A DNA stretch of 24,676 bases from positions 1 through 24,676 of the forward strand of contig JAIXMF010000196.1 in assembly GCA_025201365.1 (NCBI GenBank). Direction: 5' to 3'. The notes beneath the pieces are model-generated. The model was not told where the DNA came from, did not search any database, and saw only the letters and a program-made list of their open reading frames with translations. The DNA comes from Syncephalis plumigaleata. Lineage: Eukaryota; Zoopagomycota; Zoopagomycetes; Zoopagales; Piptocephalidaceae. Shown here one piece after another: positions 1-24,676 of the stretch. The position numbers and the translations under genes were made by a program. Every line of letters starts with the position of its first letter. The first letter of the stretch is position 1.

Positions 1-157
1 AGTCAATTGATTCACATTGTACAAGCAGGGATGGCCATTAATATTGACATGTATGTATGTATGTATCTTTGTATTCTACTAAATTATCACATGTAACTGA
101 CAAGTCATCAAGTAATGACTACACGACTATTACCATACATATTATTGTATAAACATC

Positions 158-163
158 TTTATT
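158..163 (-). terminator. Poly(A) signal of the RBR gene
   Basis: AATAAA on the minus strand about 23 nt beyond the RBR stop codon. The position suits a fungal 3' end, but the motif is common in AT-rich DNA. Confidence 0.4.
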
Positions 164-185
164 ATGGCTCTATTAATAAATTAGG

Positions 186-1719
186 TTATGGCAGTACCAT
201 ATGACTGTGTCGTCTCGACGATACTGATCGAGTGATGATACGACGCATGCCAGACATGTTAGGAATGATGCGTGGCATACTCCAACGACTACGCTGCCAT
301 GATTTACGCTTTGTCGACGTTAATTGACTAATATCATAGGTCATTAGCTCGTCGACCGCTTCCTCCACTTGGTCACCTTCCTCTTCAGGCCAGTGGATAC
401 TGTCGTTAAGCGTGCAACCCGACAATAGACACTTGGAGGTTGTCGTGTCCCATTTACCGCCACATCGATAACAACTATTAGTAAGAAAGGAATAAATAAA
501 AAGATACCATTCGGATTTGTTAATGATTCTGCGTTAAATGTATAATGTTAATGACGTACAATTCATGCGAGCACAAACAATTAGTCGAGGATCTATCCGT
601 TTTATGACCGGATATCATAGTATTACACCCTTGACAACGATGACAGCCACTCCGTCCGACGGCTTCGCTCTTACTTCTCACCGCCAGTTGTTTGGATGGT
701 GCGCTAATTGGTTCGCTTTGACGACGTGCCACCGACCATTGATTTGAATTCGTATTCGAGTTTGTATTCAGATTAGAACACGGGAATCCGATATGATTTG
801 CGGTGGTACACTTGACACAGAACTTGAATCCACACTGCGAACAAAAGATAGAGCTATCCCAAGAGAAGGATTGCGATGCGGTTGGCATCAATGTTGCTCG
901 ACACGTCTTGTTAGGACATAGAATGGTACGAGTCATCGTGGGTTTAGCTTCCGTTTCACCACGCCATTGTACTAGTAAATGCGGGTCAATTATTCGTGCT
1001 ACATCCTCGGTATTGGTGGTGATTTCGTGTGTACACTTGGGAATCGGACAATGCAGCAATGTCGTGGTGTAGCCACCACGTTTAACGTATAATTCAACGT
1101 AACGTTTTATGCACTCATGACAGTAAGCATGGCCACATGACAGTAAAAGTGCAGCTTTGACCGTGTCGTCTTTGATAATATGCTTGGTCGATTTTCTTCT
1201 TACCGTGGATAACGAGGCATTAGTGGCTACCAAGTCGAAACATATGGCACACTCGTAATGTGAACGAGATGGCAAATCTTTATCATTATTATCATCAGCA
1301 TCGCCAGCATCGGCATCACTTTCCGCATAAGCATCGCCAAATGGATTATCACCTTGTCGCTGATCATGTAACATCCGTTCTTTTTCAACAGATTGTTGCT
1401 TTGACGAGGAAGAGGAGGAGGAGACGGAAAATGAGCGAAATCGAAGTGATTGCAATTTGCCATAAAATTGCTTGCCTGATATACTGGGAAAACGCAGTCT
1501 AGATCGCTTTGCAGTGAGCACTTGTCCACTTTCAGCAGCTGGCTCTTGTTCTGTCTTTGACTTTCTCAGTACAGGTCGAGTGCGTTGATTCCTCTCTACA
1601 TCCTCGCTAGCGGCAGTGGTGGTAGTCGCTCGTCGTATGAGACGACGTGGCCTACTATCGCTATTACTATCGGTAATAGTTTCATGCTTTTGTGCATTCT
1701 TCTTTCTAATCAATGGCAT
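186..1719 (-). CDS. RBR (RING1-IBR-RING2) E3 ubiquitin ligase-like protein, catalytic Cys missing
   Basis: Two exons, 1719-560 and 474-186, joined across an 85-nt intron (559-475: GTACGT donor, TACTAATAG branch and acceptor). The join restores the end of RING2 (HEFCYRCGGKW) and gives 482 aa. Residues 1-150 are basic and Ser-rich, then acidic. RING1 spans about 157-229 (CAIC, CGHAYCHEC, CPIPKC), with a long loop between the second and third ligands. The IBR spans about 268-314 (CPNKTC, CSQCGFKFCVKC, H, C). RING2 runs from 362 (CQGC) to 391 (CLC, FCYRC). RBR ligases pass ubiquitin through a RING2 cysteine about ten residues after the second zinc ligand. Here 366-380 contain no Cys, so HECT-like transfer is doubtful although zinc ligands look intact. 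The ATG at 1719 is the first in frame. Family call firm; activity and substrate unknown. Confidence 0.85.
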
Positions 1720-2651
1720 TGTAATACAAGTGCTTCAATGAACGAGAACAATAAAAATCAATGATAAACAAGTACAAAAATTAAAAGAGATATACAATTG
1801 AAATAAGAAGAAGAAGACGAGGAAGACGAAGAAGTGGCAGACAAGCAATAAAGCAATACACAGAAACAAGCACGAATACACGAGAATGGATGGACAAAAA
1901 GTGGGGCAAATGCCCTTATCGTTCTGTAACTTTATACCACCACCACTCTCGACCCAGCCTAGTTTTTCATTCATTAATGAACCGGTTTGTACAAGCATAG
2001 GCGTCATTGCTGATACATACCCACGTACACGTACATCCACACACATTTAAGCCTATCAAATTGTAGGAGTCACAGTTGACTCGGCGATGAGCATGGTATT
2101 TATTGCAAAAAAACCAGTAGAATTGAAATTGTAACACTAGAAGCGTAAGGATCATCATTATTATTGGCTGAGCCTATACAATAAAGGTAATTTATTAATA
2201 ATAATAATATTGTTGTGATGCTTATTCATGACCTGAACAAGAGCGTGGTGCAATATAAAAAGAGGAAGAAGAAGAAGAAGAAAAGGAAGAAGTAAGGATG
2301 AATAAAAGTGTAGCGAGCACAACAAGGACTAATTTAACGTTGAAAATTATAACGCAAGTGCGTATGTTAATGTCCTACGAGAACAATGATGGGATCACCC
2401 CGGCCCGCCAGCAGGCCATAATAAACGATCAGTGGAAAGACAGAAAGATAATGACAAAAAGAAAAGTAATTGCCATCGATCGTCTCCCTTCCAACAATAG
2501 TAATATTACCAATAAACTTATGGATAGAGTCGAGCTTTTTTTATAGTTTTTTACGCGATTATGTTGGACTAACAGTAGTCATTGTACAACAACGAGAGTG
2601 TGTCAACAATCATTGTAATACAATTCAGTCTAGTAATACTAAGCTGGACTT
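1720..2651. other. Intergenic, no convincing gene
   Basis: AT-rich spacer between the RBR start and the stop of the secreted repeat protein. It holds purine runs built from GAA/GAAG (about 1805-1835 and 2260-2292) and AATAAT runs near 2195-2210. An 82-codon frame at 2298-2546 (+) has no recognisable domain and an ordinary composition. I do not call it a gene. Confidence 0.5.
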
Positions 2652-2896
2652 TTAGTATTTCTTGTCATCATGATCCTTCTTGTCGTCGTGATCATATCCG
2701 TGGTCCTTCTTGTCATCATGATCCTTCTTGCCGTCGTGATCATATCCGTGGTCCTTCTTGTCATCATGATCCTTCTTGTCATCATGATCCTTCTTGTCAT
2801 CGTGATCATATCCGTGGTCCTTCTTGTCGTCATGATCCTTCTTGTCGTCGTGATCATATCCGTAGTCCTTCTTGTCGTCGTGACCATAGCCATGCT
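2652..2896 (-). repeat. Coding tandem repeat, His-Asp-Lys tail
   Basis: Imperfect tandem units encoding HGYDHDDKKD followed by one or two HDDKKD units, continuing to the stop codon of the secreted repeat protein. Unit order and number are irregular, as expected for slippage or unequal crossing-over. Confidence 0.8.
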
Positions 2897-3863
2897 CGTG
2901 GTGTTCGTCATCCTTCGATGTCTTACACTTGTCATTTACGCAGTTCCAGCTCTTGCCGTGACCATCTTTTACGGCAGTTCCCTCGCTAATATCTTTACCG
3001 TTCCAATGGCCACCTTGCCAGTTGGCACCATTGCCATGACCATCAGCAGCTACACCGGCACTCCATGAGTTGGGCTCATTGCGTCTCTTCAAGTCGTGGA
3101 CATCATTCCAGCTCTTGCCGTGTCCGTGCTCGAAAGCGGTTCCTTCGCTGACCTTGCGTCCATTCCAGACACCACCCTGCCAGTTGGCACCGTTACCGTG
3201 TTCATCCACAGCAACACCGGCACTCCATGAGTTGGGCTCATTGCGTCTCTTCAAGTCGTGGACATCATTCCAGCTCTTGCCGTGTCCGTGCTCGAAAGCG
3301 GTTCCTTGGCTGATCTTGCGTCCATTCCAGACACCACCTTGCCAGTTGGCACCATTGCCATGACCGTCAGCGGCAACGCCGGCACTCCATTCGTTGTTGT
3401 GGTGGTGGTCGTGATCATGTTCGTCACGGCGTACTAGCTCATGAACAGTGCTCCAGCTCTTACCGGCACCGTTATGGAATACTGTGCCTTGGCTGACATC
3501 ACGTCCTGCCCAGTGGCCTCCGTGCTTATTGCCATTAAGACCGTGACCATTGTCGAATGCACCGCCATGCCACGAGTCGTGATGTCCGTCATCGCGGCGT
3601 GCTAGTTTGGCGTCACCATAACCATAGTAGTCGTTGTGTTCATCGTGGTGTGGCTTATCATCGTGATGCTTATATCCATCATCGTGGTGTCCATTGTCGT
3701 GGTGACCATGTCCATGTCCATCGCCATGATGATGTCCGTCATATTGACCCTTGTAGGTGTAATCCGGAGTAGCCACACCATCGGGTGTTGGTAGTGCGAA
3801 AACGCCAACGTTGGCCACGGCGGCGTTCAACAATAGGACAGCGGCAGCGAGTTTGCAGTACAT
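2652..3863 (-). CDS. Secreted Kex2-type repeat pro-protein with His/Asp/Lys tail
   Basis: Single exon, 403 aa from the ATG at 3863, which opens a clear signal peptide (MYCKLAAAVLLLNAAVANVGVFA, residues 1-23 in two blocks: 1-10 and 11-23). An in-frame ATG 16 codons upstream would bury that peptide, so I prefer 3863. Residues 44-85 are His/Asp/Gly-rich. Four related repeats follow, about 91-144, 147-204, 208-258 and 262-313. Shared motifs are W-S-A-G-V-A, GANWQGG-W-NG, S-(Q/E)-GTAFEHGHGKSW. They are separated by ARR (90), VRR (146), KRR (207) and KRR (261), typical Kex2 sites. The last repeat has the only two mature cysteines (308, 313). The tail 319-403 is tandem HGYDHDDKKD/HDDKKD. This matches the general plan of fungal Kex2-processed repeat proteins; I know no named homologue. 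The acidic-His tail could bind metal (inference). Confidence 0.8.
   Translation of the reverse strand: MYCKLAAAVLLLNAAVANVGVFALPTPDGVATPDYTYKGQYDGHHHGDGHGHGHHDNGHHDDGYKHHDDKPHHDEHNDYYGYGDAKLARRDDGHHDSWHGGAFDNGHGLNGNKHGGHWAGRDVSQGTVFHNGAGKSWSTVHELVRRDEHDHDHHHNNEWSAGVAADGHGNGANWQGGVWNGRKISQGTAFEHGHGKSWNDVHDLKRRNEPNSWSAGVAVDEHGNGANWQGGVWNGRKVSEGTAFEHGHGKSWNDVHDLKRRNEPNSWSAGVAADGHGNGANWQGGHWNGKDISEGTAVKDGHGKSWNCVNDKCKTSKDDEHHEHGYGHDDKKDYGYDHDDKKDHDDKKDHGYDHDDKKDHDDKKDHDDKKDHGYDHDGKKDHDDKKDHGYDHDDKKDHDDKKY
3059..3382 (-). repeat. 162-nt tandem coding repeat
   Basis: Two adjacent, nearly identical 162-nt (54-codon) units start at about 3059 and 3221. Each codes a KRR-NEPNSWSAG...SWNDVHDL module of the secreted pro-protein. 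Flanking modules are more diverged, so these two are the most recent duplication. Confidence 0.8.
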
Positions 3864-3910
3864 GGTGGTTATCAAGTAGAAGTATTCAAACAAAAAAACA
3901 AAGTTGAACA

Positions 3911-3942
<32 letters not shown>

Positions 3943-3946
3943 GTTG
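3911..3946. repeat. (TGAT)n/(TGGT)n microsatellite
   Basis: Tetranucleotide tandem repeat within the likely 5' UTR of the secreted repeat protein, about 50-80 nt upstream of its ATG. Confidence 0.85.
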
Positions 3947-4072
3947 TTTAGTTGATTGTTAGCTTGCCAGCCAGCTGACGAAAGAATTCAGTAGTTGTTG
4001 TTGTTGGAGGTTGCAAAGCAAAGGTGAGTATGAGATGATGCTGAATAAATGGAATGGTAACATTAGCGACGG

Positions 4073-4082
4073 TATTTATATA
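4073..4082 (-). promoter_or_regulatory. TATA-like box of the secreted repeat protein
   Basis: TATATAAATA on the minus strand, about 210 nt upstream of the chosen ATG. It implies a 5' UTR of roughly 170-180 nt rich in CAA and CAAT. No mapped transcript supports it. Confidence 0.45.
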
Positions 4083-4727
4083 CAAAATTGTCCGTGTATG
4101 TATGTATAAATGTGTGGGGTATTAATCTCTACATTATACTGCATAGTCACTTGTTATTCCAAGCCCAAGGTTGTCAACGGTCAATATGATCTTGCCTAGC
4201 CTTTTTTCTTTCGTTAAAATAAGTATAATAATAGGAATAATAACAGGAATAATAAGAATAATGCAATTCATACCATTTGGCTTGTCGCATTCTAGTATGC
4301 AGGCTCATGTATGTACGACAAGCCAAAAGGAGTCAAGTAGAGGAAATGATACAAGCTGCACTACAAGCCATAAAATAACGACAAAGAGGAAGGAGCAAGC
4401 CATTGATAAGATGTCCACTTGCTCTACTGATGCCATGAATCTATCGTAGAATGGTAATTTAGTTGCATCGAGGCATGTACTTTAGATGTTGATTACATTT
4501 CACGGTGTTTTCTATCGTTAATGATCTTATTGCCAATAGGAATGGAAATAAACGGCATGTCTCGTAATGATAATACGAGCAATTAGATCAACTATAAAGA
4601 CATTTCAATGGTGTACAATACAATATTGACCACGTTACACAATGACCGGTTGATCTACGTGGCGAACTATTGTGGTAGTCATTACTACTGCTATTCCAAT
4701 TTCTTTTTCCTTACCCTTTCCGTCACC

Positions 4728-6482
4728 ATGAACGTTATTCCCAGTGTTATCGTTGAACGTATCGCCATATACGCCGATACCAATTCACTAGTAGCACTAG
4801 CAGCATGTTGTCGACAGCTCTGGTGGCACATTACTCAGCTGCAGCCTATTTGGATGCATCGATACCAGGAGTATTATAAATTTAAGGATGATAAGGAGGC
4901 TGCGTGGATATCGTGGTATACAAAGACATTACGTATATCATCGTCATTGTCGTCATCTGCATCGTCTGCATCGCCTGCATCATTGAGGCTTGCCTATAGA
5001 AGTGTAGAAAATAAGCACTACAATATCAATTGGTTTCACGCATTATGCCATCGACGTACTACCGATGCCAATTGGTTTAGAAATCAATCGAAACACCTAC
5101 AGAGTATCATTACCACACGCGAGCATACTAGAGTAGTGGTATTGCAGAGGATCCTAATCAAAGATACGATTCTACACAAATGTCGAGTGATCGAGCAATG
5201 CCAACCATTGGAGGGAACAAATGACGCTCGATTCTGGCGTTTATGTACACCATGCTATACGGGATTCGATCCTGACATTACAGTCAAGAATATTTCGATA
5301 TCGGATAAATATCTATTAATGTTTATTAGTCATCCTGAGGGATCGTCGAGTGACTATCAGCTACCAGGTAGTATACTCGTGTGGCCCGTCAATCGTATAG
5401 CCACTATGCCACCACGCTGCCTCACCTATCCCTACAATGGTAGTGTGAACATTCGTGGTTGCTGGGCCATGTTCAACTATTCGGTTAAGAAGCCGGATTC
5501 ACGCAAGGTCGAAGCGGTCATTATTCATGTGCTGAACCTTAACACCGGTCGCGTATGCATTAACACGTTCAATAGCGTGGTAACCTGGTCGTTCATACAA
5601 CGTATCACCAATGACACGGTGACCGTGATTCGTGTATCATTTGAAGGATTCCACTTTGCCACTCCAGTAAAATGGAGTGTATGGGAGTTCTCTAACATTC
5701 TTGTATCGGATACACCACGCTGTTTAATGAAGGGCAGTTTCGTCGTGAGTGGATTCAACGATTTAACACCGTTAATGGAAAGACTAGACGACGATCGAAT
5801 TATTGTAAGATGCCTCGCTTTCCGTAATAATAATAATGACAATGGTGATGATGGTGGTGGTCAATCGATCAACGACGATATGAGCAATAATAATACTAAT
5901 AATAATACGAATACATTAACACTGGCAGTTATTTCAACACGTAGTAGTAATACAAATAAAGTGCTACATGATCAGCAACCAGTATGGTCGCGTAATATTT
6001 TAATGAAATCGGCAAAACCGCTCATTTCATTGAATCGAGTGATCGTCGTGACGAGAGATGGTTGCACAGTCTACGATTTGGATAATGGCGATGCATTGGC
6101 ATTCACTCCCATGGATACCATTCAATCATTGCTTCATGAACACTGTTTGGCCAATGCTCATTATCATCTACGAATGACGGCAAGCTACATACAAGGATAC
6201 GTTTTGTGCGAGTCAATCGATAACACATCGTATGTGGCGGTGGATCCAATACACACAGAACGCTCCGGAAAGCTAAGGTTAGCCTACGTATTCGAGCATT
6301 ACAACATAAAAGCATCGCAATCAATGCTTATCGAGAATCTTTGGGATAAACAATACTACGCTAAACTGTTGAGAATTCCATCTCCTAATGGAAAGAAATT
6401 GGAACTAAGGATTAGTACCGTGTGCGTACTTGTTATCGAATGCAACGGACAATACAAAGTACTTGATTTCTCCTTCCCATAG
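4728..6482 (+). CDS. F-box protein of unknown target
   Basis: Uninterrupted frame, 584 aa from the ATG at 4728. The context CACCATG is good and the F-box starts at once: residues 2-46 contain IPSVIVERIAIYADTNSLVALAACCR, split here as IPSVIVERIAIYA and DTNSLVALAACCR, then LWWHITQLQPIW. An upstream in-frame ATG (4608) would add 40 non-conserved residues. F-box proteins link substrates to Skp1-Cullin-F-box ubiquitin ligases. The remaining ~530 residues show no repeat family I can name. They include alternating hydrophobic strands, such as a VTVIRVSFEGFHF segment, that could form a beta-propeller (inference). An Asn/Gly/Asp low-complexity insert lies at about 367-398. No introns are needed. Confidence 0.75.
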   Translation: MNVIPSVIVERIAIYADTNSLVALAACCRQLWWHITQLQPIWMHRYQEYYKFKDDKEAAWISWYTKTLRISSSLSSSASSASPASLRLAYRSVENKHYNINWFHALCHRRTTDANWFRNQSKHLQSIITTREHTRVVVLQRILIKDTILHKCRVIEQCQPLEGTNDARFWRLCTPCYTGFDPDITVKNISISDKYLLMFISHPEGSSSDYQLPGSILVWPVNRIATMPPRCLTYPYNGSVNIRGCWAMFNYSVKKPDSRKVEAVIIHVLNLNTGRVCINTFNSVVTWSFIQRITNDTVTVIRVSFEGFHFATPVKWSVWEFSNILVSDTPRCLMKGSFVVSGFNDLTPLMERLDDDRIIVRCLAFRNNNNDNGDDGGGQSINDDMSNNNTNNNTNTLTLAVISTRSSNTNKVLHDQQPVWSRNILMKSAKPLISLNRVIVVTRDGCTVYDLDNGDALAFTPMDTIQSLLHEHCLANAHYHLRMTASYIQGYVLCESIDNTSYVAVDPIHTERSGKLRLAYVFEHYNIKASQSMLIENLWDKQYYAKLLRIPSPNGKKLELRISTVCVLVIECNGQYKVLDFSFP

Positions 6483-6824
6483 TCAAACGGTATATATGTA
6501 CACATATTAATAAATGAAATACTGACTTTAATATAAACAAGTTGATTGCAAACTAGCAACTACATTATTATTTTATATATGATGTCATCAAGTACAGTGG
6601 ATGAACACGCGATTGAATTCCGATTCAAAATGGACAAGAGTAAAATAAAACAAAAATAAAAAATAACAAAAATAGCACATGCGATCGGGCTTATCTTTCA
6701 TCTTTTTTCTTCCTCCTCCTCCTCTTTCTCTTCTTCTTCGTCTACTTCCCTGACCCGCTTTTCTTCACGTTACGCTTCAATTGAACGCGAATTGCTAAGC
6801 CTTCCTCTTCCTCTTCTTATCAAG
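6483..6824. other. F-box 3' end and GMP synthase promoter
   Basis: AT-rich first half, then a long pyrimidine tract (about 6693-6750, CTT/CCT repeats) directly upstream of the GMP synthase start. Such tracts are common in promoters and 5' UTRs of strongly expressed fungal genes. No gene is seen. Confidence 0.5.
6509..6514 (+). terminator. Poly(A) signal of the F-box gene
   Basis: AATAAA 27 nt beyond the F-box stop codon. Confidence 0.5.
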
Positions 6825-8668
6825 ATGGCCGATCTTCAACAGCCCAACGTACCCGGTGTCACTACCGAGGTACACTCCATGTATGACACCATTTTAATCC
6901 TTGACTTTGGCTCGCAATACTCTCACCTTATTACACGTCGTGTACGTGAGGCTGGCGTTTATTGTGAACTCTTGCCCTGCACCCAAAAAATAGACGAACT
7001 TCATTTCAAGCCAACTGGTATGTATGCCTATATATACATATATATATATATATCGTCACCTATCCTTATTATTATTACTACTACTATTTCTCGTAGTAAT
7101 AGTTATTGAACTAGTTTGTTAACACATTTTCTTTCCTTTATTATTTCGTTATTAGGTGTTATTCTATCCGGCAGTCCTTACTCCGTCTACGATAAAGATG
7201 CTCCCCGTGTTGATCCAAAGGTATTCGAGTTGGGCGTACCTGTACTAGGTATTTGCTATGGTCTTCAGGTAATGAATAGAAGATGTTTTATTTAATAATA
7301 ATGCTAATAATAATGAAAATCGTTAAACATGTAATCTAGGAAATTGCCTGGAATCATGGTGGCAAAGTAGATCCTCATGATAAGCGAGAATACGGACATG
7401 CTATCGTTAACGTGACACATCATGACAACCATCCCGTGGCCAACCTTCTATTCGACGGCGTTAACACAACAACCAAAGTATGGATGAGTCATGGTGATCA
7501 ATTGAGCGTGCTACCACCAGGTTTCCGTATTATCGGCCATACATCCACGGCACCATACGCGGCCATTGCCCATGAGGAGAAACTACTCTACGGTATTCAA
7601 TTCCATCCGGAAGTAACGCACTCGGAGCAAGGACCATTGATTCTACGTAACTTTGTAATTAACGTGTGCAAATGCCGTAACAACTGGTCCATGGACTCGT
7701 TTGTCGATAAGGAGATCGAACGTATTCGTGCCATTGTCGGCCCTACAGCCGAGGTGGTCGGTGCCGTTAGCGGCGGTGTCGATAGCACGGTGGCAGCCAA
7801 GATCCTACAGACCGCCATCGGTGATCGATTCCACGCCATTCTAGTGGATAACGGTGTGATGCGTCTTAACGAGTGCGCCACCGTTAAGGCGCAATTAGCC
7901 GATCATCTCGGTATCAACCTAAAGGTGGTCGATGCAAGCGAGGAGTTCCTCGGTCTATTGAAAGGAGTGACCGACCCTGAGAAGAAGCGTAAAATCATTG
8001 GCAACACATTTATCAACGTGTTCGAGCGTGAGGCGGCCGCCATTGACGAGGAGAACGCGAAGAAAGGACGAGGCAAGATTGAATACCTACTCCAGGGTAC
8101 ACTCTACCCGGATGTCATTGAAAGCATTTCGTTCAAGGGACCGTCGGCCACCATTAAGACACATCACAATGTGGGCGGTCTCCTCGAGGATATGCGACTC
8201 AAGCTTATCGAACCGCTACGCGAGCTGTTCAAGGATGAAGTACGCGCCTTGGGACAACTATTGAAGATTGACGAGGAACTCGTGTGGCGTCATCCATTCC
8301 CCGGACCCGGTCTAGCCATTCGTGTACTAGGCGAGGTGACCGCATCTCAAGTGGAGATCTGTCGTCAAGCCGACGACATTTACATTGGTGAAATTAAGAA
8401 GGCAGGCCTTTACCGTAAGATCTCCCAGGCTTACGCTGCATTGTTGCCTGTACGCTCGGTCGGTGTTATGGGCGATCAGCGTACTTACGAGCAAGTGATC
8501 GCTCTACGTGCCGTTGAAACCACCGACTTTATGACGGCCGACTGGTTCCCCATGCCAGTAGACGTGTTGAAGCGTATTAGTCAACGTATTATTAACGAGG
8601 TGCGTGGTGTTAATCGAGTAGTTTACGATGTAAGTTCCAAGCCTCCTAGTACCATTGAATGGGAGTAG
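6825..8668 (+). CDS. GUA1: GMP synthase (glutamine-hydrolysing)
   Basis: Three exons: 6825-7017, 7156-7268 and 7340-8668, 544 aa, the usual length. The enzyme aminates XMP to GMP using glutamine and ATP, the last step of guanine nucleotide synthesis, in the cytosol. N-terminal class I amidotransferase domain: [12 protein letters not shown] near 24-35, nucleophile Cys98 in GICYGLQ, and partners His191/Glu193 in FHPE. ATP pyrophosphatase domain: P-loop SGGVDS at 246-251. The C-terminal domain has [18 protein letters not shown] and the conserved terminus KPPSTIEWE. Intron 1 (138 nt) carries a TA microsatellite; intron 2 is 71 nt. The start at 6825 (MADLQQ) is preferred to an in-frame ATG 11 codons upstream because it leads directly into the family's N-terminus. 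Confidence 0.97.
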
Positions 8669-13834: not shown

Positions 13835-15627
13835 ATGCGTGTCACCAACGCTGTTCTTTGTGCCACCTTGTTGTTGGCGGTATCTTCGACGACCACCATC
13901 ACATCGGTCGAAGCTGCTCCATTAAAATTCTCATCAGTAAGTAGTGGAATCAATACTCAGCCTCGATACATATATATAAATTAACTCGATTTGTTTAGTT
14001 TGGCATTAAAGTGCCAAGTATGCCTTCATTAGGTTCCCTTAAACCTAATATTCCATTCGTAAGTAATGAGATGAATATTCAACTCTAATATACTGACTAA
14101 ATTTGTATAGCTTGGCGGCAAATCACCAAGTATGCCTTCATCGGGTAACTCCTTTACATCTAAGATTCCATTCGTAAGTAATGAAATTAGCGCTTAATTT
14201 GAAGACACTCACAAAATTGGTTTGTTTAGTTTGGCAAGAAACCCCCACCTGCTCCAGGAGCAACGGTTCCTGGATCAGCGGCTCTTCCTAAGGCGCAACC
14301 ACCACCAACGGTTCCAGGAGCAACGGTTCCTAATACGCCTGACCATTTAAGAGCATTAGATTCTACGCCTGGTAGCACACCACCCGTAACAACAACTCCT
14401 TCCACTAATTTGCCACAAACCAACACAGCAGCACCGGTCAATAATCCTGCACCGCCAGCTCCTGATTCGACTGCCCAGATGATGCAATTTATGCAACAAA
14501 ATGCCCAATCAGGAAATAGAATGGAGGCTCTCACTTTAGGTGCAACTGTTAGCACTGGCCTGGTCTCAGCAGGTGCTAACATAGCTGCGTCTAATAATGC
14601 AGTTGCTGCGCAAACTAAGCAAGCGGAAATCCAAGCAGCTGCGCAAGATAGGGCAACGCAAGCCCAAACGGAAATAGCAAGGACTCAAACGCAAGCTCAA
14701 GCGGATATGGTAAAAGCTCAATCGCAAGGCCAAATAGATATGTTAAACGCCCAAGCAAATGCCCAAACGAAGATGATGACGTTACAGCAGCAACAGCAGC
14801 AACAACAACAAGCTTCCCTTGGCTTCCCACCGGGCCAAGGCTCGTTTGGAGGCGCACCTTCCTCTAATAATCCATTAGGAACCTCCTCGACCTCCACCTT
14901 CCCACAAGATCCATTAACAGATTCAACTCTCCCACAAGATCCATTTGGCACTACATCTCCAAGTTCCTCCCTAAAGGACCCATTAGCTAGTTCAACGTCA
15001 GGTGCTGGTACTACTGGTACTGGCACTGGCACTGGAGTCCCTGGTGCTGGCGGTGCTGGTGCTCTTCCTGGCGGTGCTGGTACTGGAGCCACTGGAGTCC
15101 CTGGCACTGGCGCTACATCTCCAAGTGCCTCCCTAAAGGACCCATTAGCTAGTCCAACGTCAGGTGCTGGTACTACTGGTACTGGCACTGGAGTCCCTGG
15201 TGCTGGCGGTGCTGGTACTGGAGCCACTGGAGTCCCTGGCACTGGCGCTACATCTCCAAGTGCCTCCCTAACGGACTCATTAGCTAATCCAACGCTAGGT
15301 GCTGGTACTACTGGCACTGGCACTGGCACTGGAGTCCCTGGTGCTGGCGGTGCTGGTGCTCTTCCCGGCAGTGCTGGTACTCTTCCTGGCGGTGCCGGTG
15401 CTCATCCTGGCAGTGCTGGTACTCTTCCTGGCGGTGCCGGTGCTCATCCTGGCAGTGCTGGTACTCTTCCTGGCGGTGCCGGTGCTCATCCTGGCAGTGC
15501 TGGTACTCTTCCTGGCGGTGCCGGTGCTCATCCTGGCAGTGCTGTACTCTTCCTGGCGGTGCCGGTGCTCATCCTGGCAGTGCCGGTGCTCTTCCTGGCG
15601 GTGCTCTTCCTTCTAGTACCAATCTAG
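13835..15627 (+). CDS. Secreted Gly/Ala/Thr/Pro-repeat protein with mini-exons; frame broken near the end
   Basis: Four exons: 13835-13936, 13999-14058, 14111-14173 and 14230-15627, all joined in phase 0; 540 aa as read. The N-terminus is a signal peptide (MRVTNAVLCATLLLAVSS..., cleavage probably near residue 27). Exons 2 and 3 are related 20- and 21-codon modules (F/L-G-x-K, PSMPS, K-x-I/N-IPF or K-IPF). Exon 4 opens with FGKKPPP and a Pro-rich stretch. Next comes an Ala/Gln-rich, coiled-coil-like block (about 195-270) ending in a poly-Gln run. Long units starting TSPS(S/A)SLKDPLA follow, then GTLPGGAGAHPGSA repeats. At about 15543 one G of a GGT codon is missing relative to the other repeats. 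The rest is then read as a hydrophobic tail ending at 15627. Without that loss the frame would run to a TAA at 15636-15638 and end STNLAKL. Possible cell-surface or effector protein; function unknown. Confidence 0.7.
14953..15370 (+). repeat. Long coding tandem repeat (162/135 nt units)
   Basis: Three units beginning at 14953, 15115 and 15250, each coding TSPS(S/A)SL(K/T)D followed by GAGTTGTGTG-type runs. Unit lengths differ (162 nt, then 135 nt) through internal loss of GGAGALPG-type segments. Confidence 0.8.
15379..15600 (+). repeat. 42-nt minisatellite encoding GTLPGGAGAHPGSA
   Basis: Units begin ACTCTTCCTGGCGGTGCC at 15379, 15421, 15463, 15505 and 15546. The spacings are 42, 42, 42 and then 41, so the last junction has lost one base and changes frame. 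Copies are otherwise nearly identical. Confidence 0.9.
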
Positions 15628-17996: not shown

Positions 17997-20651
17997 CTAC
18001 ATGTAGAACATGCAATTACGCAATTTCTCGTGCAATCGACGGTAACTTGGCGCGGTAGAATCCGACGTATGACTGGTGACATCGCCAAAGTTGTCGCCGG
18101 TAGCATGGAAACGAGCACGAGCCGCCAAGATATCCGCGTAATAAATGGGTGGCACTACGCTGACAGATCGAGTGCAACGCGCGTATAAATAGCACATGCG
18201 ATAGGTGAGCTCTTGCAATGCGTCCGGCGTGAATCGATTCTCATCGTAAATCACTTGATAATGTGATGGACGTGACGTGCCTTGAATGCCCGAATGAGAC
18301 ATTAGGTAAAAGTCGAACTCGTAGGGATGCGTGATATCCGAATCGACGACTGTGCCGGGCACGCAATTACCCGATCTATCGGCCATCTCACGCCTAGTTG
18401 GGAAAAAGCGAGTATGATGTCGTTTCTGCACCGTGACATAAGTAAGCGTCGGATTGTAGTGCGGCTCTAATTGTTTGCACGCTTGCTTAACGGCTTTAAC
18501 CTCCATGTCGAGCACTTGTTGGAACTCGCCCTCCGACACACCATCACGATAAAAGAGAATACGCGCCGGCTTATGTCCGGTATTTCGGAAGAACGCCTTC
18601 AGCAACTCGATAACCATCTCGGACAAGTCGCCAATAATCTCGGCGCGAGCCGTTTGAATACGAATAGACGAGCTGAACTGGGATAGACTAGCGTCGATAG
18701 AGCCGACTAGGGCGGATATCGAGGGACGTGTAACATCGCCGGGCGCGGGATGAGAAACGTCAGCGCCAATGATGATGGTGGGCTTCTCACTAATAAATGG
18801 CAGTGCATCGCGTGCTAACGTGGAATTGATGCCGCCGAGTTTCGCGTTCATCTTCAAACAAACGTTCGCGCAATATTGTATATTCGGTCGATGCGTGTGT
18901 TTCGCGACAATACACTGCGTGGGGATACCGACGATTGTCTCGCAGACACGCTTGATTTCCGCGTATAACGGCACAGATGAATCCGGAACAATACAGACGA
19001 TAATTTGCGGAGGTGCACGGAATCGTTTCTCGGCTTCCATGTGAGCAGCACGCATAATCTGCTCGACATTGGTTTGTCGATTCTGCTGTACGATCGGCGG
19101 CTGACTAGCGGTGATATTCATGCCGGTACGCTTACAAGTCGACACTAGCTCGCGGATAAAGCCCTCGGCCTGGCCACGTCCCACACGGTCGGCAAACGAT
19201 ATGACCGACCAACTACCGAGGACGGCGCCCGTTGATACAAGCTTATCGCGCAAGTTCCACACGCCCGTGTTCGGTGTCACTATTGCCTCGCGACTCTTCG
19301 GGTTGTAATGAATGCGCGGCGTCTCCAATATACGAGCTTTAACATTCATCGGTTCCGTGTCCTTGATGGAAACGCCGAAAGCGCGAATATACTGATTGTG
19401 ATGATACTTTAACTCGCGGATACTATCGCGTACCATGTTCAATCGCTTGTCCGGACGATGAGTCGTGAACTTGATCATACCGTCTGTTTGTTCGGGTGAT
19501 AGTTTACGCGAGCACCGTTGATTCTCGACGACATCGCACACTTCCATTGGGAAGTACATGCCCTTCTTTACTTCGATGCAAGGCAGTTCCGGATATCGCA
19601 GACGCATCTGGTACTTTTCCCTAAAGTAGTTCACCACACTCTGCTGCTGATTGGTGTCACCCACGGTGAATGTCGTGCGTGAGGCATCGCCTTTGGTGAG
19701 GTGGTTCGCCTTATACTTGCGTTTGTCCGAACCACGATGCGTGACGTAAAAGGATAAACCCTTGACATAGGATTCAACACGCGCAGCATCATTCGATCGC
19801 AAACCACGACGTAACTGATCCGGATGTTGTAGGTTAAGGATACGACACACGATATTAATGAGCGGACCGTGCGCGTAGAATGCCGTCGAGCTAATATCCA
19901 CGTTCACGATCATTTGTCTATAAGCGGGACGAACCGATTGGTACAAGCCTTGACGTGCCACTAGGCCACCAGGTAATGGTACCGAGCTCTGTTCATCAAT
20001 ATAGTAGGATCGTCCGACCGTCGTGTAGCGGAATGCCGGTTGATGTCGTAGTAGAATATCGTACAGCATAATTGCAGAGTGAATATTCGGAGTGATCTTG
20101 CATCGGCCCTCGATGAATTCAAATAATTCCCTCATGTTCACCTCCGCAGTACGACGAATGGTTAGCGTGAAAATACGCGGTTTACGTGTGGAACGACCAT
20201 CGGATTCGGGCAGGGTAATCTACAACGAGTATTTATATCAAGTACATACTAATACTATTTCTATTGCTACTGCTACTACTACTACTACTAATAATAATAA
20301 CACGCTAATCTATTGGGTAAAATTTACCTCAGTACGGAAACCATCACCAAATGGCATATCTCTCGGTGCATAGGCGATCTTCTTTCCATCGTATACCATC
20401 AATAGACCACGCCATTGCGAACGATTCATATCTTCGAATTGTTGAAACACTTGTCTATTGGTGAATGGACTCGAGTCCGGTTCAATGGTTACGTCATATT
20501 GAATAACGTTACTCTCAATCATCCTGGTTATCATGTAATTATTGGTGGTCACAGTAACAGGGCGACCGTTTCTACCGTAGCCAGGACGATGAACGAACGA
20601 GACCGGCTGATACGTAGCCACTTGTTGTTCTGCTTCCATCATACTAGCCAT
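17997..20651 (-). CDS. Argonaute, RNA-silencing slicer with DEDD tetrad
   Basis: Two exons, 20651-20328 and 20219-17997, with a 108-nt intron (GTAAAT...GTAG) that contains a CTA/TAT trinucleotide run; 848 aa. Argonautes hold small guide RNAs and cut or silence matching transcripts. N domain from FVHRPGYG and GRPVTV; the PAZ region is about 210-345; MID has the 5'-phosphate pocket (YAEIKRV, PTQC, K residues in NVCLKMNAKLGG, near 527-571). PIWI carries D595 (GADVSHP), E635 (RAEII), D667 (YRDGVSEGEF) and D804 (YYADILAARAR). The last position is Asp rather than the His usual in animals; DEDD is an accepted catalytic set, so it is probably an active slicer. The start at 20651 (MASMMEAEQQ) is likely, but a short upstream exon cannot be excluded. 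Confidence 0.95.
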
Positions 20652-21414
20652 GTTGGGAACAATAAAAGCAGCACCTAAGGCGTGGGTTAATAAAACGGCC
20701 AAATAAGATGTCGAATAGTATTTGATAAAAGAGAGAAAAAGGAGTAATGAAGACAGAACAACCTAGTGAACTGGATAGAGTGGTAGTAGAGATGAGTAAA
20801 TACCGATAGTAACTCAAAGTAAAAATAAAGGATTGCTAACAGTATTTATTAAACCAACAAAGAGAAGTAACCAGGCCTGTAAACGGTTAAAACAACAACA
20901 ATAACAACAACGATAACAACGATAACAATAGCACTAGAAAAAGAAAGAGGTTGGGTGTACGCATAAAAAAGGAGGAAAGAAACCTTTTTTCAGTTTTAAT
21001 GCGTCTCCAACTCGCTTAAAGTGAAGAGGTCAGATTCGTAATAAGCCATGACCATTTCATAAGCATAGAATATTTGCTCACTTTTTTTACAACTTTATTA
21101 ACATCCTACTAATGAATGGCTTGCATAGGCAAATAGAAAATGAAAACTTGTTCATTCTTGCTCTAATAATAATGAATTATTATAGAATATTAACAGTTAA
21201 TCAATGTAAGCAGCACATTATAGGTAACTAGATAGAGAGATATACAATTTTAGGTAGTTTATTAAACAAAACAACGTATAAGCAATAGTGCCGCGTATTA
21301 TTCATTAAAATGTTCATGAATAATAGTCTCATCATTTCTCATCATTTACTCGGGTAGATCAATGGTTCAGGGGTGGTAGTAGCAACAACAACAACAGTGC
21401 ATGCTTATGAATGA
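20652..21414. other. Intergenic, Argonaute promoter and SPX-fusion 3' end
   Basis: Contains a CAA/AACGAT repeat stretch (about 20893-20930) and A-rich runs. It also has plus-strand T-rich patches that may be poly(A) signals of the SPX-fusion gene. No coding sequence is supported. Confidence 0.5.
21258..21263 (-). terminator. Possible poly(A) signal of the SPX-deacylase gene
   Basis: AATAAA on the minus strand, about 150 nt beyond the stop codon. Confidence 0.35.
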
Positions 21415-23826
21415 TTATAAGTGTCCATCATTTGACTCACCCGCAAACTCGCCTCCAATTACCCCGAGATGTATGATTCTGTTGCCACTCTGACATACGG
21501 GATCGACATTCTTACCAACGATAATGCCATCCTCTGGTGAGTAATACGTGCACTCTAGGTGGCCAAATATCGAGTGTACAGTAGCGATGGGTTCACCCTT
21601 GCGTACCCATGTATTAACATCGTGTAGTACACTTAGAATGCCACCAGTACGAGCAAATATCCAGAACTACATTGCACATGCATACATACATAATAGATAG
21701 ATAAATAAATAAATAAAAGTAAAGATACGTGTACATTAGACGGTCACACTTATTAGATACATGAATGAATGAATGAATGAATGACCTACACTTCTGGAAC
21801 AAATAACCGGTTCGAATTCAGGCATGTCTTTCTCGTGTGGAATCATTTTGAGATGTGACATAATGTTCGTCACGCCTAGGAGAGCGCTTTTTAAGTATCG
21901 CTTCTGTAACTGGGATGGATCACCAATTTCAACTAGTAATCATGGCATTATTGTTAAATAAATATGCTGTTATAGGATGATATGCTTTTCTCTACTCACC
22001 CGTGATAGCGGCAATGTTACGTTCCATGGCTGCACCGCGTAATGATCCATCTGGACTTGTATTGTGTACAATAATCTAATACACACAGTATATATATATA
22101 TATGATTTGATGAGTGATTGCTATTAAATGTTCACTGCTGTTTTGTACATACTTGTGGATTCTGTAGACGTGCCATGGCATGAGTACGCGGGCTATTCAT
22201 GTCGGCACGCACGTATAACGAATTCATTCGACCACGACTAGCCGTGTGGAGATCGAGTAAATGGTTGCATTTAACAATGATTCGCTCCATTAAATGATAG
22301 GCGTATACTTGCGCTACCGTTCCATTACTCTTGCTGTCATCACACGTATTTTATACGAGTAAATAGATGCGCGTACTACATCATGTTCATTAACAGGGAC
22401 TTACCCTGGCATTAGTCGATTCAAGTCGGAACCATCGGTGTAGCCACGTTGCCCACGTACATAGCCGGGTGCATTGGCCACTGGTACTGCCAGTACCGTA
22501 CCATGCAATTGTGTGCAGTCCAGTTCCGAGAACAGTTTATGAATAAGTGGGATGCCATTAAGTTCATTGCCATGTAGAGCGGCAGTAATACCAAGTACTG
22601 GACCCGATTTTGTCCCCTATACAAGGTGAGCATGCATGTGTGTGTGTGTGTTCAAATTGTGAGCTACGTAGATAGTCTATGCTAATGTGGATGCCCTTAC
22701 CTTAGCCACAATGACTGGCACTTTAATCGGTTCACCAAGACCATTCTGCGCTAGTACCACCCATTGACGGGTTATCTGTCCATGTGGCATGGTATCTAAT
22801 TCGAGATCTTCCACAATAGAAATATGCGCCTCTAATACTGAACGAGATCCCGTATCATCTATCACTGCACCAAGGATTGAATCGCGCCTTTTTAACGGAT
22901 CTTTTACTTGTTCGTCTACCGGTTGTGGTACCGGTGGCACTTGTTGTCGCCACACCTATAATAAACGATTAGTCGATTTGCAGGAGATGTCTACATGACA
23001 ACACGATGCATTAGTTGCTAGCGAGCCATTCGCTTACCTGACGAGCACGAACGAGTAGGTGTTCATTCTTATGAGCACGCGCAAATGGTGTGTTCTTAAT
23101 CAATGGCCAGACACGATTTGTCAAATTGCTTGCTCCAAAGTTCTTGTCGTATTTCTTTAATATCTTTTGAAATCCTGTTACATTCGTGTGAACGTAATCT
23201 AATTCGAATAGAGCATTCATTAGGATATTATTGATGAGGATACGCATTCTATCCAAATACTTACCGGCAATATACTCGAGTGATTGTAGTAACTTGGTAA
23301 CTCTTGCTTCTATAATGAATTCATTGCATTAGTCAAGATAAATGCAATCGTTGAAGCACGTATGGTCATCATAGCACTTACAGGCATCATTTTCACCGAG
23401 TGCCATGTCCTTCTCACACTACTTATTGTTAGCTGATCATTCTTCTTATATCACGCGGTGCAATTTGCAATGTACATGTGTATACGCATACCTGCGAGTC
23501 CAATTCCTCCAGTTTAACGGCACATTCTCTCTCCTGCTTTACGTAACGATCGTTGACTTTGTCCACCTCCGTGAGAACCATCTGTTCAAACTGATCCGCC
23601 ATAATGTTCATATCCTCCTCGGATAGCACTTCATCTAACGATAGAGAACGAGCAAGTTAGACTACAAATGACCATGTCGTCTTTTCTTTTCTTTTCTGCT
23701 TAATAGTGACAAACCATTGCAACGTGCTCGATTCGCGGCAATCTGCTTCTTTAAGCTTTTATAATCGATATAATCAACGCTCCAGGCTGGTATGGCCCGG
23801 AGTGCCAACTGCTTAGCGAACTTCAT
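21415..23826 (-). CDS. SPX domain fused to AstE/AspA-type zinc deacylase
   Basis: Ten exons, 559 aa: 23826-23715, 23634-23492, 23418-23382, 23306-23038, 22955-22701, 22616-22405, 22333-22153, 22075-22000, 21932-21790, 21666-21415. The SPX domain (about 1-185) opens MKFAKQLALRAIPAW and IDYKSLKK (Tyr22, Lys26), and ends with TGFQKILKKYDK (Lys145, 148, 149, 152). These are the basic positions that bind inositol pyrophosphates in other SPX proteins. After a linker, the M14-like succinylglutamate desuccinylase/aspartoacylase domain (about 230-545) has zinc motif HGNE (His287, Glu290), DLNR, LLDLHTAS (His372) and TVEIGD (Glu430). All expected active-site parts are present, so it is probably an active deacylase; the substrate is unknown. 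Every exon join keeps frame and both domains run on uninterrupted, so fusion by mis-annotation is unlikely. The exon 3/4 junction is ambiguous (TAG/AAG tandem acceptor). Confidence 0.9.
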
Positions 23827-24258
23827 GATATACTATGGATACGTAGACGACGACTACCTATGGAATAAGCAACACGCATCAAATGATAATAGAGAAGAGT
23901 GGAAAGAAATAATGTCTTACACTTTTGTTAATTGATCTGTGACGCGATGTTTAAGAAGGTAACACAGAGACAGAGACAGAGAGACACAGAGAGAGAAGTG
24001 GTGCACTTATCAGTGTGTGATGCTTATCATCATCGTCATCATTGCATATATTTTTATTCCGTAAATCATTAGCATTAATAAAAAACGCGAACGTCATCAT
24101 TTGTTGTTTTTGTACAATGCGTTCTTACATTGTAGTCATTGTAATACTACTAATATTCATGATCAATATTTTGAATTGGATATCGCTTATTATTAAAAGA
24201 CTCGTAATCGTATATCAATAAATGAAAGGAAAAGAACTGTAATTGCAATTGATGAATG

Positions 24259-24289
<31 letters not shown>

Positions 24290-24388
24290 CCTTACATCCA
24301 CTTACCAACGCGTTATTCTTTTTTGCTGCTTTTTTCAATTCAAGATTCTACTTATTACTACACTTAGATTACTTATTGCTATAAGAAT
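23827..24388. other. Divergent intergenic region (SPX fusion / DUF4536 gene)
   Basis: AT-rich, with CAGAGA-type repeats (about 23968-23996) and a GT microsatellite. It holds the presumed promoters of the two divergent genes. No coding sequence is supported. Confidence 0.5.
24260..24289. repeat. (GT)n microsatellite
   Basis: About 14 uninterrupted GT units, some 100 nt upstream of the DUF4536-like gene. Confidence 0.95.
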
Positions 24389-24646
24389 ATGGTCGATACG
24401 CCCTCTGATAATAGTCAACAAGACTGTATCGCTTGTCGTCTAACTGGTGGTGGTGCGTTTACAGGTGTAGGCGGCTATTTACTATGGGAAAGCAGGCAAT
24501 TACCACTAAAGTTGCAAGCACGTCGCACTGGTCTACGTATTGCAGGACTAGGTAGGTTACTAGCAATAACAAGGATATTTCGATTCTTGTAATAATGAAG
24601 TATTATAGGATTCATTGCTGCAGGCATTTATCGTTTATTAATGTAA
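24389..24646 (+). CDS. DUF4536/DMAC1-like small membrane protein
   Basis: Two exons, 24389-24551 and 24609-24646, around a 57-nt intron (GTAGGT...TTATAG); complete 66-aa protein. The layout is a short hydrophilic N-terminus, DCIACRLTGGGAFTG (a CxxC motif, then the first glycine-rich membrane segment), a basic loop with QARR, and a second membrane segment ending GFIAAGIYRLLM. This fits the DUF4536 family, related to animal DMAC1, which helps assemble the distal membrane arm of mitochondrial complex I. Mitochondrial inner-membrane location is inferred from the family. Reading through the intron would replace the second membrane segment's end with an unrelated tail, which supports splicing. Confidence 0.8.
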
Positions 24647-24676
24647 AATCAAGCATATCAAAGTATAAGTGAACGA

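Follow-up and report, generated by a model that had tools for sequence, protein, structure and literature searches.

An SPX domain joined to an AstE/AspA-type zinc enzyme in Syncephalis plumigaleata, and its putative pairing with an ATP-grasp-fold ligase

An SPX domain lying ahead of a zinc enzyme of the aspartoacylase/desuccinylase (AstE/AspA) type raises two questions: are the two halves really one protein, and if so, which reaction would the SPX domain control? We analyzed this arrangement in a stretch of 24,676 nucleotides of Syncephalis plumigaleata DNA, referred to here as the window. The minus strand from 23826 to 21415 was read as one gene of 11 exons with a 537-aa product, its start ATG lying at 23826 and its stop codon ending at 21415, just where the initial annotation had placed them. 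In the gene model the frame is open throughout, and all introns are GT-AG and between 66 and 123 nt long. The features are listed in Table 1.

Table 1. Coordinates of the exons of the SPX-enzyme gene and of other features of the window
Feature	Position	Strand	Content
Exon 1	23715..23826	-	Start codon, SPX N-terminal hairpin (Y22, K26); SPX profile positions 1-31
Exon 2	23492..23634	-	SPX helix region, from the gene model
Exon 3	23382..23418	-	SPX; junction to exon 4 uncertain in the window copy
Exon 4	23265..23306	-	SPX
Exon 5	23038..23198	-	SPX core helix GFQKILKKYDK (K123, K126, K127, K130)
Exon 6	22701..22955	-	Linker (residues ~166-210), then the N-terminal stretch of the enzyme; both domains joined in one exon
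Exon 7	22405..22616	-	HGNE zinc motif (H265, E268), R307, N316, R317
Exon 8	22153..22333	-	LLDLHTAS (H350), GRMNSLYVRADM
Exon 9	22000..22075	-	From the gene model
Exon 10	21790..21932	-	Catalytic Glu (E408, TVEIGDP)
Exon 11	21415..21666	-	C-terminal domain and stop; alignment to DoeB 6twl reaches residue 525
Argonaute	18000-20219	-	Uninterrupted 740-codon frame; PAZ, Mid, Piwi
Repetitive frame, Gly/Ala/Pro-rich	14230-15624	+	No Pfam match at E 0.001
Repetitive frame, His/Asp-rich	2655-3947	-	WSAGVAADGHGNGANWQGG-type repeats; no Pfam match at E 0.001

Two details of the initial annotation were revised, namely its count of ten exons and its lysine cluster at residues 145-152. Intron 4 (23264-23199) is 66 nt long, in frame and stop-free, and its retention would add 22 residues; when it is removed, the cluster is formed by K123, K126, K127 and K130. 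Reading through this intron would explain both the count of ten and the higher lysine numbering. With the intron kept, SPX scored 62.7 bits; with it removed, the score was 68.9 bits, and human XPR1 aligns across the intron 4 site with no insertion.

The SPX matches stop near residue 165, and the resemblance to 79 bacterial enzymes is clear from about residues 210-224, in an alignment that took in the window protein from residue 204 onward only. Exon 6 therefore holds a linker of ~45 aa together with the start of the enzyme. This linker exon had been proposed at 22955-22701; it was found there and is open. The C-terminal domain in exon 11 is presumably of the barrel-sandwich type. A scan of 22600-23100 for bacterial-type promoters and terminators returned one site each, on the plus strand and close to shuffles, which is uninformative for a eukaryote.

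The window contig (C108, 24.7 kb) duplicates a portion of C112, which is 2.35 Mb long, at 98-99% identity over the two stretches compared (1-8000 and 18795-24676). The ~98% duplication resembles a second haplotype, with several one-base length differences in 2.8 kb aligned. The two copies of the gene differ by nine exonic substitutions, eight of them synonymous and one of the nine lying in the SPX part; two exonic one-base indels were set aside in this count. If all substitutions are taken as transitions, with a 66% chance that a transition is non-synonymous, the synonymous excess has a probability of about 0.001. Across the genome, all four AstE_AspA matches fall inside the two copies of this gene.

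That two adjacent genes, or a decaying gene, had been misread as a single gene is very improbable. The window copy does have an unusual junction between exons 3 and 4, needing an AAG acceptor three bases past a TAG that would end the reading frame, and the C112 copy is frame-shifted in exon 6 by a length difference of one base; however, where one copy is awkward the other reads cleanly, the C112 copy passing the exon 3/4 junction with ordinary sites and scoring 70.1 bits in its SPX part. Moreover, the junction of the two domains is spanned by exon 6, the synonymous pattern runs through SPX and enzyme exons, and the catalytic residues are kept. The one-base indels between the copies, of which two are exonic, fall in short homopolymer runs and look like consensus or assembly errors of either contig; alternatively, they may mark a decaying allele. 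Contamination was rejected because the SPX-enzyme gene and the partner gene described below both bear introns (read by eye) and the other SPX copy lies on the 2.35 Mb contig. The SPX and enzyme halves are almost certainly parts of one gene.

The Pfam SPX model (PF03105; cut-off 27.8) matched the whole protein at 61.9 bits (E 1.5e-16) and the SPX part alone at 68.9 bits, so the full SPX domain with Y22 and K26 that had been claimed from the letters alone stands. The ligand-pocket residues Y22, K26, K123, K126, K127 and K130 are all present, and those beyond the counterparts of Vtc K127 and Y22 are taken by us to have ligand roles. In the accessible part of PMC10167327, Vtc K127 belongs to a lysine surface cluster, and Y19, Y22 and N121 lie near the pocket; Y19 and Y22 recur in the window protein, whose K123 and N117 match Vtc K127 and N121 at an offset of four. 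IPK-family matches were found at three places in the genome, two of them with equal score, and one contig bears PPIP5K N-domain matches at two sites, so that inositol pyrophosphate ligands can probably be made. Judged by its residues, the SPX domain is quite likely to bind inositol (pyro)phosphates. Gating of the enzyme by inositol pyrophosphates, the hypothesis of the initial annotation, is plausible in view of the kept ligand-site residues and the encoded IPK-family and PPIP5K-type kinases. We favor, with moderate confidence, an SPX domain that gates catalysis, the direction of gating being likewise our inference. The SPX domain might instead serve chiefly to position or scaffold the enzyme, with no catalytic gating; contacts with other SPX proteins at the vacuole would be one example. 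The VTC complex uses SPX-SPX contact, according to the accessible part of PMC10167327, and a VTC-type match is present in the genome, but the kept ligand residues fit scaffolding and gating alike, and we regard this role as improbable.

At the other SPX loci of the genome, pieces matched VTC, GDPD, EXS, CitMHS and RING models; these loci were scanned as single pieces, and the assignment of a match to the same gene as SPX was based on its position alone. At one locus (L041, C329:472500-480500) one open frame contains the C-terminal part of an SPX domain, at 32.2 bits, as well as an ACT-like stretch, whose 22.1 bits fall narrowly short of the cut-off of 23, and downstream pieces match HAD / phosphoserine phosphatase SerB. 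This locus is possibly another case of SPX fused to an enzyme of amino-acid metabolism, and no paper in the literature searched joined the terms SPX domain, phosphoserine phosphatase and fungal. A further SPX gene appears to be present in two copies (L038 on C340, L039 on C257); the one piece of L038 scanned matched SPX weakly, and no further domain exceeded its cut-off there. An SPX-like stretch with 42% identity over query residues 111-152 was also seen on an IMG/VR viral contig of 2363 bases (L022).

The enzyme half matched AstE_AspA_cat (PF24827) at 113.6 bits (E 1.1e-32; cut-off 25), in agreement with the AstE/AspA type first assigned to it, and the motifs that had been named were all located: HGNE at 265-268, LLDLHTAS at 346-353 and TVEIGD from 406. 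H265, E268, R307, N316, H350 and E408 are identical in all 79 bacterial rows and in DoeB. We assume that H265, E268 and H350 are zinc ligands and E408 the catalytic residue, with roles as in carboxypeptidase A. The enzyme half is very probably an active zinc amidohydrolase. Its identity to the bacterial family is 49-55% over 267-273 residues (best 80 of 408 loci). Viral contigs were scanned twice, once with the full-length protein and once with the enzyme half as query, and no enzyme relative turned up; the scans used few short peptide patterns, which may miss distant ones.

The activity first proposed for this enzyme was N-acyl amino acid hydrolysis. Its present form is an SPX-gated, aspartoacylase- or DoeB-like deacylase functionally separate from the ligase described below. 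Among solved structures, 3cdx and DoeB (6twl/6twm) are the nearest in sequence, R307, N316 and R317 agree with DoeB, and DoeB takes the acetyl group off N-alpha-acetyl-diaminobutyrate (PMC3187862, accessible part); the scores nevertheless lie far under the cut-offs of the DoeB equivalog TIGR02994 (70.8 bits vs 402.7), the AstE equivalog TIGR03242 (16.9 vs 305.65) and the bacterial aspartoacylase equivalog NF002601 (28.6 vs 180), and the conserved bacterial partners show ATP-grasp folds or profiles, not acetyltransferase ones. Deacylation was kept as one option, which we consider unlikely.

The genomic surroundings of the bacterial relatives were analyzed at the best 80 of 408 relatives (L049-L128), for which 79 loci were counted; 69 of the 79, with at least 2700 nt upstream of the enzyme gene, were testable. 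A family of 480-aa proteins is encoded beside the enzyme gene in 62 of the 69 testable loci, a GshB-like ATP-grasp protein in 58, both partners in 56, and both in the same order in 53. For six of the seven testable loci that lack the 480-aa family next to the enzyme gene, the genome carries it elsewhere. Among 198 genomes of one phylum (that of genome G004), the enzyme and the 480-aa protein occur in the same seven, one of which is the chosen center. Since they come from the best 80 of 408 loci and from the genomes of a single phylum, the linkage and co-occurrence data are not independent. Downstream of the enzyme gene, genes named from reading their sequences as arginine decarboxylase-, agmatinase- and deoxyhypusine synthase-like were present in 18, 16 and 16 of the 51 loci with at least 4500 nt downstream. 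A polyamine role was set aside, as these genes possibly reflect lineage-limited synteny.

No Pfam or NCBIfam model scored over its cut-off for the 480-aa family. The predicted structure of a bacterial orthologue (~480 aa) has an ATP-grasp fold, its best Foldseek match reaching a TM-score of only 0.39-0.40, and on this model the partner is probably a ligase, with an amide ligase fold. For the bacterial operon, no literature linking ATP-grasp, aspartoacylase and RimK was found, and the accessible part of PMC4431377 mentions neither aspartoacylase nor desuccinylase.

The genome of S. plumigaleata also encodes a member of the 480-aa family. This intron-bearing gene lies on contig C90, separate from and unlinked to the SPX gene. 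It was pieced together from exons chosen by eye, with one unexplained frame change in the reading, and the resulting protein has 55% identity to a Myxococcota relative over 484 columns. A search of the genome, run without a positive control, found no GshB-like gene. A tree was built for each of the two proteins, and in both the copies of this genome group with the bacterial loci L115, L059 and L086 (enzyme and 480-aa protein, support 100/96 and 98/93), placements left unsure by long branches, with L086 and L059 flagged as a possible false join. At these three loci the 480-aa gene stands directly before the enzyme gene and no GshB-like gene is in view (two-gene form). It is fairly probable that the SPX-enzyme is paired with the C90 ligase, presumably through a shared metabolite.

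The two-gene and three-gene forms also differ at residue 317, presumably the position of the carboxylate-binding Arg in carboxypeptidase A and aspartoacylase, which is Arg in the window protein. At loci with a GshB-like gene this residue is His in 66 of 67 and Arg in one; at loci with the 480-aa neighbor only, it is Arg in five of seven, with one His and one Gln; and at the five loci with no partner in view, His occurs four times and Asp once. The comparison of Arg against the rest between GshB and 480-only loci gave a Fisher p of 8e-6, relatedness ignored. The Arg/His switch tracks the absence or presence of the GshB-like gene and is a lead to a possible substrate difference between the two forms. 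N316 and R317 suggest that the substrate carries a free alpha-carboxylate on its leaving part.

Because the bacterial partner appears to be an ATP-grasp ligase, the substrate may be an amide or (iso)dipeptide that is made and unmade by the pair. We tentatively read the protein as an SPX-gated amidohydrolase undoing the bond made by its partner ligase, at slightly less than an even chance for the whole; the fusion is read directly from the gene, and gating, pairing and substrate are what we infer. The C90 ligase would spend ATP to make a small amide or (iso)dipeptide, and the SPX-enzyme would hydrolyze this product when inositol pyrophosphates bind to or leave the SPX pocket, reporting the phosphate and energy state to it. 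Ligase and amidohydrolase would form the two halves of a cycle, of which the hydrolase half bears the SPX domain here. An (iso)dipeptide-like substrate is possible rather than probable. We are similarly doubtful about a wider history, in which a eukaryote acquired from bacteria a module for making and breaking an amide, consisting of the ATP-grasp ligase and the zinc amidohydrolase, and added SPX to obtain an inositol-pyrophosphate-gated storage or solute cycle of some amide or dipeptide.

The SPX effectors described in the accessible parts of PMC12388464, PMC13153306 and PMC10167327 act on phosphate transport, polyphosphate, signaling and transporter turnover, and the SPX classes named in those of the first two do not include an SPX-AstE/AspA fusion. 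The literature search, which covered few subscription papers, found none naming an SPX domain with succinylglutamate desuccinylase or aspartoacylase, or PF03105 with PF04952; among the papers listed for SPX in combination with deacylase terms, none used the words SPX domain. If the gated amidohydrolase is real, phosphate status would be linked to nitrogen and carbon reserves directly, with no transcription step, and a soluble, switchable enzyme would offer an assay for how SPX transmits ligand binding. Taken together with the SPX-ACT-SerB-like locus, it would point to a wider habit of putting amino-acid enzymes under SPX. The bacterial 480-aa family of ATP-grasp fold would gain a testable role.

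Known SPX effectors include the VTC4 polyphosphate polymerase, Pho81/GDE1-type SPX-GDPD proteins and SPX-RING ligases. The window protein shares with these the N-terminal SPX domain, ligand residues included, and the presence of a catalytic or effector domain after it; it differs in that this second domain is a zinc amidohydrolase, of a kind belonging to amino acid or amide metabolism and not to phosphate transport, polyphosphate or ubiquitin. DoeB/EutE, the N-alpha-acetyl-diaminobutyrate deacetylase, shares 22% identity in the aligned stretch, and the window protein is far under the DoeB cut-off. CphZ, which hydrolyzes the cyanophycin dipeptide beta-Asp-Arg, belongs to the same fold family, at 16% identity for the bacterial orthologue compared, and is a fold match only. 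Closest is the bacterial three-gene set of 480-aa ATP-grasp-fold, GshB-like and AstE/AspA-type proteins, to which the enzyme half is 49-55% identical and whose 480-aa member is also encoded here. It differs in that SPX has been added here and no GshB-like gene was found (in the search without positive control), and in that the window protein has Arg at position 317, as do most two-gene loci, whereas 66 of the 67 loci with the GshB-like gene have His.
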